A stretch of DNA of 52,068 bases from Acidobacteriota bacterium (GTDB taxonomy: Bacteria; Acidobacteriota; Blastocatellia; UBA7656). Positions within the stretch are counted from its first letter, which is position 1. Each line of letters opens with the position of its first letter. The notes beneath the pieces are model-generated. The model searched no databases. It saw only the letters and a list, made by a program, of their open reading frames with translations, and had not been told where the DNA came from. The translations under genes and the position numbers were made by a program. The stretch lies in the NCBI GenBank assembly GCA_016201275.1, contig JACQDB010000140.1:1-52068 (forward strand), in the 5' to 3' direction. Below are positions 17,199 to 52,068 of the stretch, in pieces.

Positions 17199-17847
17199 TC
17201 AAACTCCTGACTAAAGATATAGCTAAGGGCTACTGATCAAATGTCAACTTAGCACCAAGGATTTTCACCTTTGGTTTTCGTATTCGATTTTCCCAGGTAC
17301 ATCAGGAAAGCTGTTTGGCGCAGGTAGCGCGCCAAACGAAGCCCCAGTATATCATGCACGATCAAGCGTTTTTGCCAATAAAATCGGGCTTTTTGCACAC
17401 TTTGGCAGCAGCCCGACCGATTACTTTCACTATATCAAAGCTTACCCGGACTTCTTGCGATTTTCTTACAACCACGCACGCCCCGTAACTGTTGACAATT
17501 TGCCGTCACTGAGGGAAACAGTGGCGCAGAAAGGGGGCGGGGGAGTGGGGGAGACGGGGAGAAAGAGAGACCGGGAGACGGGGAGAAAGGGAGACGGGGA
17601 GTGGTTGACGAATTTGATTTGAGGCGAAACTTTGCATATCGAATGCAGGGAAATGCGTATGCCGAAGACGCGGCACGATTGATGAATGACGAAGAACGAA
17701 TGCCGAAGAATAAAGCACGAAGCACGAGGAACGAAGAACGAGGACGAAGGGCTAGGGCTAGAGATTGAGGAGTGCTACTATCGTGAAGGGTTTTGCAAAA
17801 GCAACGTGCTTGCTTCATCCACCAAATTTTTGCTTCGAGGTTGAGTG
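17199..17847. repeat. 649-bp divergent spacer with two heptamer-type arrays
   Basis: No gene is seen. At 17537-17600 is a G-rich array of GGGGAGA/CGGGAGA-type units. At about 17686-17750 is a second array with period 7 built on CGAAGAA/CACGAAG-type units. Both belong to the short-repeat class found in other spacers. No inverted partner arm was found for either. Promoters for the flanking divergent genes must lie here but none is convincing. Confidence 0.6.
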
Positions 17848-42104: not shown

Positions 42105-42197
42105 ATTCCCTCAACAAGAAGGGGAGAGGGGGAGACAGGGAGAACGGGGAGATTCAATGTCTCCCTGTCTCCCTGCCTCCCTGTCTCCCTGTCTCAG
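42105..42197 (-). repeat. Inverted G/C-rich heptamer arrays between the AtuA genes
   Basis: On the minus strand the upstream stop TAG is followed at once by CTGAGACAGGGAGACAGGG-type units (42197 down to 42157). The complementary TCTCCC units cover 42150 down to 42118. They can form a long stem in the transcript 14-20 bases before the next start. Confidence 0.75.
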
Positions 42198-43577: not shown

Positions 43578-43648
43578 GAGGAGAAAGGGAGAGGGGGAGA
43601 AGTACGCTACTCCCCCTCTCCCTTTCTCCCTTTCTCCCCTTCTCCGAA
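43578..43648 (-). repeat. 20-bp perfect hairpin of heptamer arrays between the CDGSH and AtuA genes
   Basis: 43580-43599 and 43610-43629 are perfect inverses over 20 bases (GGAGAAAGGGAGAGGGGGAG and complement) with a 10-base loop. The array continues to 43648, up to the CDGSH stop codon. No T-run follows. Confidence 0.8.
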
Positions 43649-49499: not shown

Positions 49500-49575
49500 G
49501 ACAGTGGATAAAGGGAGGGGGAGTGGGGAGAAGGGGAGATGGAGAGAACGGGAGACGGGGAGATGGGGAGAAACC
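49500..49575. repeat. Heptamer-type G-rich array in the rnz-DUF1573 divergent spacer
   Basis: Repeated GGGGAGA/CGGGAGA/TGGAGAG-type units between the two divergent starts. No complementary arm is seen in this spacer. Confidence 0.6.
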
Positions 49576-49621: not shown

Positions 49622-49657
49622 TGCGGCTCACTGAAACACCACATTACGGAGATTTTT

Positions 49658-50752
49658 ATGAAACTCAGAAAATTAATTGTTCTCTTCTCTATGGTGTTGG
49701 CTGGTGCGGTCGCGACAACGGCGCAGGAAAAATCTGTGTCCAGTGGCGAACCCAAACTTGCCATTGATTCGTTCACTCACGACTTTGGAGAAGTGAAATC
49801 AGGGACGCCGCTTGAATTCACTTTCATTGTGAAGAATCAAGGCAAAGCCGACCTCTTGATTAAAAGCGTAGCCCCTGGCTGAGGCTGCACGGCAAGCGAC
49901 TTTGATAAAGTCGTGCCTCCTGGTAAGGAAGGCAAAATCACCCTCGCCGTGCCGCACACCGATGGCTATGCCGGAGAAGTTTCCAAGTCGGCGGCTGTAA
50001 CCACCAACGATGCGGCTTATCCGAATTTCAACTTGTTGTTGCGCGCCTTTTTCAAAGCGGCAAACACCGAAGCGGTGGCGGGCAATGGCAATCTGCAACC
50101 GAAAGTTTTTTCGGAGGCTGGCAAACGCATCGGCGCGTTGAGCATAGCGCCCAGCGATAGATGGATGACCAGCGCCATTCGCGGCGCTGGCGCGGCGCAG
50201 ACCATGTACCTCTACAGCCATTCGGGAAAACCCATTCATATCACCTCCCTCAACCCTGGCGGCAACGCTTTCCTCGTCAAGCTACAGCCTATCGAAGACG
50301 GCAAGCGTTATGAACTACAGGTTGCCACCGACAAGAATCTAAAGCCCGGCAAATATGAACAGACCGTGAAAGTGTTGACCGACAGCGCCGAAACTCCAGA
50401 GGTCAGCATTCCCTTGGAAGTCACAGTGTATGCACAGGTCTTTGCCATGCCAACTTCAATACTGCTGCCGACGATGCCGTTTGAAATTGATCCGTCAACG
50501 ATTAATCTTCCGGCTATCTACGTTCGCAAGATTCACGATGGCGGTTTGAAAATCAAGTCCGTGCATTCATCGCTGCCGTTTTTTCGCGTCAGTCTGATAG
50601 CGGAAACCGAAGGGCAGAACTATAAAATCCAACTCGCTTTCGATAAAACCCGTATGCAGGGCAAAGGCGAATTCAAAGGCATCATTCGCATTGAAACCAA
50701 TGACGCCGATGCGCCGGTTATCGAAATTCCCGTGCAGGGCGCGTTCAACTAA
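49658..50752 (+). CDS. Exported DUF1573 protein with an in-frame TGA at a conserved Cys position (candidate selenoprotein)
   Basis: If TGA 49880-49882 is read through, one frame runs from ATG 49658 to TAA 50750-50752, 364 residues. A signal peptide (residues 1-22, VLFSMVLAGAVATTAQ) leads to a DUF1573 domain: FTHDFGEVKSGTPLEFTFIV, then IKSVAPG-stop-GCTASDFDKVVPPG. The family motif here is CGCT, so the TGA replaces the first Cys. The rest has two more ASH/Ig-like beta regions (about 120-230 and 255-364). Frame and composition after the TGA are normal. A hairpin at 49897-49913 has the position and G-first loop asked of bacterial SECIS elements. Otherwise this is a gene broken by one base change (TGC to TGA). 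Confidence 0.75.
49883..49917 (+). promoter_or_regulatory. Candidate bacterial SECIS-like hairpin
   Basis: CGACTTT (49897-49903) pairs with AAAGTCG (49907-49913), loop GAT. The loop starts 21 bases after the TGA, with G as its first base. It matches the general bSECIS outline but the loop is short. Confidence 0.35.
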
Positions 50753-50796
50753 GCGGCGATCTCCTCGCCCGAAACGTCGTTCGGCAATTGTTGTGG

Positions 50797-50829
50797 AAAA
50801 GAGCAGGGAAGCCACTCTGCTCTTTTTTT
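50797..50829 (+). terminator. Rho-independent terminator of the DUF1573 gene
   Basis: AAAAGAGCAG (50797-50806) pairs with CTGCTCTTTT (from 50817), 10-base loop, followed by a run of seven T. 44 bases after the stop. Confidence 0.85.
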
Positions 50830-50858: not shown

Positions 50859-50971
50859 TATAGCGAATTTCATTGGCCCACGACACCTGGTTGAGAGGCG
50901 GTCTGTGACCGAAGTGCGGCGGTCACAGACCGCCTCTCAACCAATCGCACACCCCTCTGCAAGCCGCTATA
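50859..50971 (-). repeat. 113-bp hairpin element, TATAGCG family, copy 3
   Basis: Ends TATAGCG (50859-50865) and CGCTATA (50965-50971). The central 22-bp perfect stem pairs 50889-50910 with 50921-50942, core GGTTGAGAGGCGGTC, loop GAAGTGCGGC. Flanks match copy 1 at 13967 in opposite orientation. Confidence 0.75.
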
Positions 50972-51599: not shown

Positions 51600-52068
51600 G
51601 TCCTAATCGTATGGTGCGGTCGGCTAGCCCGCGAAGTGGGCGCAAGTATAAAGCCACGGGCTAACGCCCGTGGACGAACGCCCAGCCGTATGGCTAGCCC
51701 GCGAAGTGGGCGCAAGCATAAAGCCACGGGCGTTAGCCCGTGGGCGCAAGCATAAAGCCACGGGCGTCAGCCCGTGGGCGCAAGCATAAAGCCACGGGCG
51801 TCAGCCCGTGGGCGAACGCCCAGCCGTATGGTTAGCCCGTGGACGAGCGCCCAGCCGTATGGCTAGCCCGCGAAGTGGGCGCAAGCATAAAGCCACGGGC
51901 GTCAGCCCGTGGACGAACGCCCACCCATATGGTTAGCCCGCGCAGCGGGTGATAGATAGTTGGCTATCACCCGCTGCGCGGGCTAGGAGGTCATCACCAC
52001 CCGCCTCCCCAGCGCTGACGCACTGGGCTTGATGCGGTCACCCGCTTGGCGGGTTAAGAGGCAATGAC
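51600..52068. repeat. Palindromic tandem-repeat block at the window end
   Basis: About 70-base units (first two start near 51622 and 51692) contain GGCTAGCCCGCGAAGTGGGC, AAGCCACGGGC with GCCCGTGG, and ACGCCCAGCCGTATG. Between 51711 and 51812 a 34-base subunit (CGCAAGCATAAAGCCACGGG...) is repeated three times. The block ends in a 22-bp perfect hairpin (51934-51955 with 51964-51985, TAGCCCGCGCAGCGGGTGAT... core). The rest to 52068 has further GC-rich palindromes. No gene seen. Confidence 0.75.

Follow-up and report, generated by a model that had tools for sequence, protein, structure and literature searches.

A probable DUF1573 selenoprotein gene with a two-hairpin RNA signal 3' of its UGA codon in a Blastocatellia genome

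The window, meaning the whole stretch of 52,068 nucleotides analysed here, is one contig (C43) of a 6.84-Mb genome from the Blastocatellia (Acidobacteriota), assembled in 162 contigs and 98.7% complete. It carries a gene for a DUF1573 protein which, by direct reading, starts at an ATG at 49658 and, after an in-frame TGA at codon 75, continues through 289 open codons to a TAA at 50750-50752. The features of the gene region are as follows:

49648-49651, + strand: GGAG, a probable ribosome binding site as judged from sequence, 6 nt 5' of the ATG.
49658-50752, + strand: predicted DUF1573 selenoprotein gene, 364 amino acids, hydrophobic N-terminus, Sec as residue 75.
49763-50020, + strand: DUF1573/HYDIN-like Ig domain, residues 36-121, by profile match and fold.
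49880-49882, + strand: TGA codon 75, very probably read as Sec, first residue of U-G-C.
50795-50828, + strand: terminator-like hairpin with a T run, in a position that fits the 3' end of the gene.

Terminator-like sites number three in the gene region against a shuffle mean of 2.3, a statistically weak excess. The gene is flanked on both sides by frames of the other strand, upstream one that we take by eye to be RNase Z-like and downstream one that we take to be NTPase-like; at a second locus (L066) the neighbours are, again by eye, presumably Lon-like and 2Fe-2S protein-like frames. The flanks thus differ between the two contexts compared, and neither gives a hint of an operon. Several repeats also occur in the window. 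A perfect 24-bp inverted repeat with an 8-nt loop (50888-50943) is a dispersed palindromic repeat, with similar arms at about 13994, 16390, 38228, 38292 and 47997, and tandem 34/70-bp units with CCACGGGC...GCCCGTGG palindromes occupy 51622-51839. A GGGGAGA purine tract in 8-bp units lies 5' of the gene (49518-49572), and tracts like it are found at 17540-17601, 42117-42195 and 43580-43645, some of them on the opposite strand.

The original prediction placed a TGA at codon 75, where the CGC motif of the family has its first Cys, giving U-G-C, and followed it with 289 further open codons of family-like protein. Direct reading bears out both statements, the motif becoming APG-U-G-C-T when the TGA is translated as a residue. 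The Pfam profile of DUF1573 (PF07610) matches the protein with 83.4 bits (gathering score 26.1) over residues 36-121, unbroken across the TGA, and therefore a single domain holds both flanks of this codon. NCBIfam NF041425, 'OS_HP2 family (seleno)protein', is also matched, narrowly, with 104.5 bits against a curated cut-off of 100; we guess that OS stands for Olavius symbiont. The open frame by itself is not decisive, because 5 of the 1942 TGA triplets in the six frames of the window are equally open, with at least 74 open codons 5' and at least 289 open codons 3'. A listing of open reading frames splits the gene at the TGA, which closes a 119-codon frame; a separate frame of 279 codons runs from a GTG at 49913.

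An alignment of homologues at codon 75, proposed with the prediction as a check, gave either TGA or Cys at this position. A homologue was present in 18 of the 39 genomes searched (own genome included), and in 15 of the 18 the motif codon of the best match was TGA, the other three having CGC. Among the 14 other relatives with TGA at this codon, six from the same family are 50-56% identical to the window protein and the others 38-48% over the matched part. Unrelated stop codons scattered through the gene in close relatives had been named as grounds against the prediction; the long orthologues (L004-L014) contain one stop apiece, always a TGA and always at the motif codon. Proteins of the Cys type (PF07610, CGC) from Bacteroidota and Acidobacteriota share the domain and the motif position with the window protein, but have a TGC or TGT codon there, and their 40 acidobacterial sites considered below do not, as a group, have selected hairpins, unlike the Sec sites.

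This distribution bears on whether the UGA could serve mainly as a selenium switch, yielding a 74-residue fragment without selenium and the full protein only in its presence. Such behaviour is inherent in any Sec gene, and the Cys-type DUF1573 proteins of related genomes could act as a backup; however, nothing supports a role for the fragment, which would amount to less than one domain given that the UGA lies inside the first. A mainly regulatory function of the codon is accordingly regarded as improbable, and incorporation of Sec into a functional full-length product as the preferred reading.

Bacterial Sec insertion relies on SelA, which forms Sec-tRNA-Sec from the selenophosphate made by SelD, and on SelB, the carrier to the ribosome. 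Absence of selA, selB, selC and selD from the genome had been put forward as evidence that would speak against the prediction; all four components are present, with scores of 66 bits for tRNA-Sec (cut-off 47, anticodon TCA), 364 bits for SelB (cut-off 242), 540 bits for SelA (cut-off 268) and 356 bits for SelD (cut-off 125). Among 14 control genomes, tRNA-Sec exceeded its cut-off in five, SelB in two, SelA in one and SelD in two. The SelD gene of the window genome (G000:C76:39650-40579, L063) itself has an in-frame TGA in an SCAGU motif and is a probable selenoprotein gene; its UGA is followed by two predicted hairpins, a single case.

In order to place the window gene in its phylum, 396 genomes were sampled, of which 189 had a DUF1573 match, only the best matches being listed. 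Thirty further loci with one TGA were recovered, 28 with the TGA at the motif Cys and two (G164 and G372) with the TGA elsewhere and CGC at the motif; in these two genomes SelB is not above the cut-off. Together with seven earlier sites, the 28 loci bring the genomes with a confirmed Sec site to at least 35 among the matches listed. SelB exceeds the cut-off (E <= 1e-75) in 34 of these 35 genomes vs 82 of the remaining 154 with a match (Fisher p = 1.5e-7, a test that ignores kinship). The sole Sec-type genome in which SelB does not exceed the cut-off (G364) consists of 820 contigs with 7% contamination.

These observations also weigh on readthrough of the UGA, or its reassignment, by another tRNA that would insert Cys or Trp rather than Sec. 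Under any such reading the frame would be just as open, and Cys is indeed the family residue. Yet TGA is an ordinary stop in the window, ending 16 of the 36 frames of at least 250 codons (shadow frames counted), the tRNA-Sec has the anticodon TCA, and the TGA falls at the motif Cys and co-occurs with SelB. Insertion of Cys or Trp is thus considered very improbable, and Sec remains the favoured residue at codon 75.

Two adjoining hairpins are predicted in the RNA 3' of the TGA:

49896-49914, + strand: SECIS hairpin 1, an 8-bp stem with loop GAU, GCGACUUU-GAU-AAAGUCGU.
49915-49933, + strand: SECIS hairpin 2, a 7-bp stem with one bulged A and loop GGUA at 49922-49925, GCCUCCU-GGUA-AGGAAGGC, the likely SelB site.

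With the T of the TGA as position 1, hairpin 1 of the window gene occupies positions 17-35 and hairpin 2 positions 36-54. The hairpin with a G-first loop that the original prediction had described 15 bases after the TGA exists and corresponds to hairpin 1, but its gap from the TGA is 13 bases and it represents only half of the signal, the adjoining hairpin 2 having gone unnoticed. Compared with dinucleotide shuffles, the 81 nt from the TGA fold with a z of -4.16 (0 of 200 shuffles as low) and the 48 nt after the TGA with a z of -2.05 (7 of 200 as low).

To compare Sec and Cys genes, 40 Cys sites were set against 60 Sec sites, all distinct, of which 59 come from Acidobacteriota and one from a member of the Syntrophobacteraceae (L088). 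From the acidobacterial loci and L088, a site was kept if it had TGA, or TGC/TGT within a CGC motif, and was unique by 60 nt; matches to other domains and CSC or CHC motifs were left out. In synonymous shuffles, hairpin 1 had a mean z of -2.41 in the Sec sites vs -0.47 in the Cys sites (Mann-Whitney p ~2e-13) and hairpin 2 of -1.67 vs -0.01 (p ~1e-10), figures to be read with the sites not being independent and with a synonymous null that takes its codons from Cys homologues and could push the Cys z toward 0. Folding of the whole region under a null weighted to each gene's own codon use pointed in the same direction, with a mean z of -1.37 for Sec vs -0.18 for Cys sites. By this measure the Sec sites are only modestly special, p <= 0.05 being reached by 24/60 of them vs 3/40 Cys sites, and the eight of them with the weakest folding range in z from -0.1 to +0.9. 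Another folding test gave z < -1.64 for 12/32 Sec, 0/17 acidobacterial Cys and 6/40 non-acidobacterial Cys sites (40 of 137 taken).

The two hairpins differ in how specific they are to Sec sites. An energy of -5 or lower was found for hairpin 1 in 55/60 Sec and 4/40 Cys sites and for hairpin 2 in 57/60 Sec and 23/40 Cys sites, the latter perhaps reflecting conserved Pro-Gly codons that favour the fold. When the loop was also required to have a G in its first two positions, the counts were 56/60 Sec and 18/40 Cys for hairpin 2, and 12/60 and 2/40 for hairpin 1. A loose stem search recovered a GG-looped second hairpin in 32/32 Sec, 9/17 acidobacterial Cys and 23/137 other Cys sites, and the first hairpin in 30/32, 4/17 and 23/137, respectively.

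Pairing is also retained as the sequence changes. The covariation score of 24 ungapped Sec sequences was 0.161 vs 0.043 for shuffled ones (0/500 as high), and slid registers reached 0.082 at best, below the true register. In these sequences 88.6% of the cells of the two helices are paired and 11.4% unpaired, and RNAalifold, unprompted, recovered both helices with 11 of their pairs. Double-sided changes, a weak measure, were seen at four pairs (16 cells) vs 2.2 in shuffled alignments (32/500 as high). In other clades hairpin 1 is coded by different residues (e.g. TAALLSAKQ, stem CUUUGCU/AGCAAAG) with the pairing kept. Spacing hardly varies: the Gly codon of the loop lies 13, 14 or 15 codons past the UGA in 1, 43 and 16 of the 60 sites. 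In one clade (L196, L200, L205 and L214) hairpin 2 is weak and the loop of hairpin 1 is GUC, so that hairpin 2 cannot be the universal SelB site.

Damage to a TGC or TGT codon, through pseudogene formation or an error of sequencing or assembly in what is one contig of a 162-contig draft, can be set aside as extremely improbable, a read error above all because the TGA is conserved (an identical codon in 14 other relatives and 28 further phylum genomes), and a damaged codon would not be expected beside Sec-specific RNA structure. The Sec insertion proposed in the original prediction is in this way strongly supported by the machinery, the conservation of the TGA, the co-occurrence with SelB and the Sec-specific RNA structure, and from these lines of sequence evidence we infer that the TGA at 49880-49882 very probably encodes Sec.

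Two individual relatives may be described here. The Syntrophobacteraceae homologue (L088:3226) has the TGA in a UGS motif without the second Cys, followed by the same second hairpin. Tandem Cys and Sec copies of DUF1573 are found at L068:3217 and L068:4409, the Cys copy having a CCTCCCGGAAAGGAGG hairpin, a SECIS-like second hairpin which may be a SECIS remnant.

The signal resembles the E. coli fdhF-type SECIS in placing a stem-loop with GGU at its apex 3' of the UGA. In fdhF this GGU lies at nt 22-24; in the window gene, unlike in fdhF, it lies at nt 43-45 with an extra hairpin between. According to the model proposed here, selenophosphate supplied by SelD would be used by SelA to form Sec-tRNA-Sec with anticodon UCA, which SelB would deliver to the ribosome while binding the RNA directly 3' of the UGA at 49880. 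SelB-type SECIS elements typically have an apical G-G-U loop, which hairpin 2 would supply; hairpin 1 would fold away about 20 extra nucleotides, bringing the SelB loop near the UGA despite a linear distance of 39 nt. Which of the hairpins SelB binds is deduced from these features, hairpin 2 being the likely site.

A scan of the gene region against Rfam returned nothing at E <= 1. The bacterial SECIS model, in the portion of its description available, prescribes a loop of 3-9 nt with a G in its first two positions, an upper stem of 4-16 bp, a distance of 16-37 nt from the UGA and a minimum free energy of at most -7.5, and a subset of elements is stated to lie outside it (PMC13188914). Hairpin 1 fits in loop, stem and spacing (21 nt) and has, taken alone, -7.3 kcal/mol (limit -7.5), and hairpin 2 fits in loop and energy (-8.7 to -11.1), with a bulged stem and a position 39 nt past the UGA (limit 37).

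The original prediction had held that DUF1573 is not a known selenoprotein family, a statement which fails: the family appears in two review tables and in NF041425. DUF1573 with motif UGC is entered in one selenoprotein table, which cites Zhang and Gladyshev 2007 and an Olavius algarvensis symbiont (PMC9312934, as far as the table itself goes), and in a second such table (PMC13188914, likewise). Nor is Sec use new in Acidobacteria in itself. Three families with four selenoproteins are recorded for the phylum in the section consulted of one survey (PMC1794560), and three known selenoprotein genes for Occallatibacter riparius in that of another source (PMC12013277). The OS_HP2 or DUF1573 'UGC' selenoprotein, taken here from its listings, has the same domain, UGC motif and Cys/Sec exchange position as the window protein; the window gene differs in coming from the Acidobacteriota and in having two further Ig-like domains. 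The literature searched, mostly papers outside subscription, yielded no report of a DUF1573 Sec family in Acidobacteriota, of a U-C class or of a bacterial SECIS with two hairpins.

The genome contains two more TGA-bearing relatives of DUF1573. The first (C19:28789-29055), a short protein of the UGC type, begins like a lipoprotein; it occurs in 5/7 genomes of the family (L002, L048, L050, L052 and L053) and scores 81.8 bits against NF041425, under the cut-off of 100. The second (G000:C73:61886-63118, L047) is a long protein with an adjacent U-C motif, in which the loop preceding the Sec is longer, and at 36 bits it stays far under the same cut-off. Its motif context is TUCSKNF in the window genome and PSUCPPADF in others, and the TGA is found in 7/7 family genomes searched (L047, L049, L051, L054, L057, L058 and L059). 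In the 396-genome sample (E <= 1e-15), full-length matches to the U-C class were restricted to three genomes of its own family; eight other matches begin at model position 112-117 and correspond to loci already found by the ordinary model. No Cys form of the class was seen in this sample at the same threshold, below which more distant relatives would fall, and a pattern scan found no relatives in viral contigs.

The sequence CCTGGTMAGG is common to all three DUF1573 Sec paralogues and occurs 12 times in the genome vs three times for the reversed control. A long-frame TGA precedes it only in the three DUF1573 genes, in each case by 39 nt, counted between the first bases of the TGA and of the motif. 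As a marker of further selenoproteins in the genome the sequence was rejected, 9 of the 12 occurrences having no fitting TGA within 60 nt. The balance tips slightly in favour of a distinct acidobacterial two-hairpin SECIS together with an undescribed, Sec-only U-C relative, the three paralogues (UGC, short lipoprotein-like UGC and U-C) sharing one RNA signal.

A signal peptide is probable by eye at residues ~1-22, and the product is probably exported. The structure model is nearly all-beta with a mean pLDDT of 81.5 and a pTM of 0.50, the latter making the domain placement uncertain. Residue 75 lies in the model between strands 66-73 and 78-82, and the product would comprise three Ig-like (HYDIN/ASH-type) domains with Sec75-Gly-Cys77 on an inter-strand turn of the first. 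For this domain the best compact fold matches were VesC (6bqm; Z 10.8, rmsd 2.2, 97 aligned) and HYDIN (2e6j; Z 8.9, rmsd 2.4, 99 aligned); the matches with the highest Z, 7ptb (Z 11.5, rmsd 10.8) and 2qsv (Z 11.3, rmsd 11.5) among them, run across several domains and superpose poorly. Fold comparison returned common Ig-like folds only (HYDIN/SPD-2/ASH, VesB/VesC, cadherins) and gave no hint of function; sequence searches of the PDB found no match by profile (E <= 0.1) or single sequence (E <= 10), and no described function of DUF1573 was found in the literature searched. The use of Sec points to reactive chemistry at the turn. Judging from the motif, the U-G-C pair could have a redox role: Sec75 and Cys77 could form a selenenylsulfide, and the protein might act outside the cytoplasm in a thiol/selenol redox reaction or in metal binding.

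Taken as a whole, the locus is best explained, with a probability of roughly 0.95, as a Blastocatellia Sec gene of the known DUF1573/OS_HP2 kind, equipped with a two-hairpin signal and encoding a probably exported Ig-like protein that could have a redox or metal-related role. What is less ordinary in this genome is the combination of the two-hairpin signal with two extra Sec paralogues, one of them a U-C variant absent from the lists; this paralogue, here found in Sec form only, is a candidate new subfamily. Sec genes of this type are easily missed, because a plain reading cuts the frame at the TGA and leaves a headless 279-codon frame. With 60 Sec sites and 40 Cys controls, the rule by which RNA directs Sec insertion becomes testable for Acidobacteriota, and the same set allows a test of whether an intervening hairpin can lengthen the reach of SelB.
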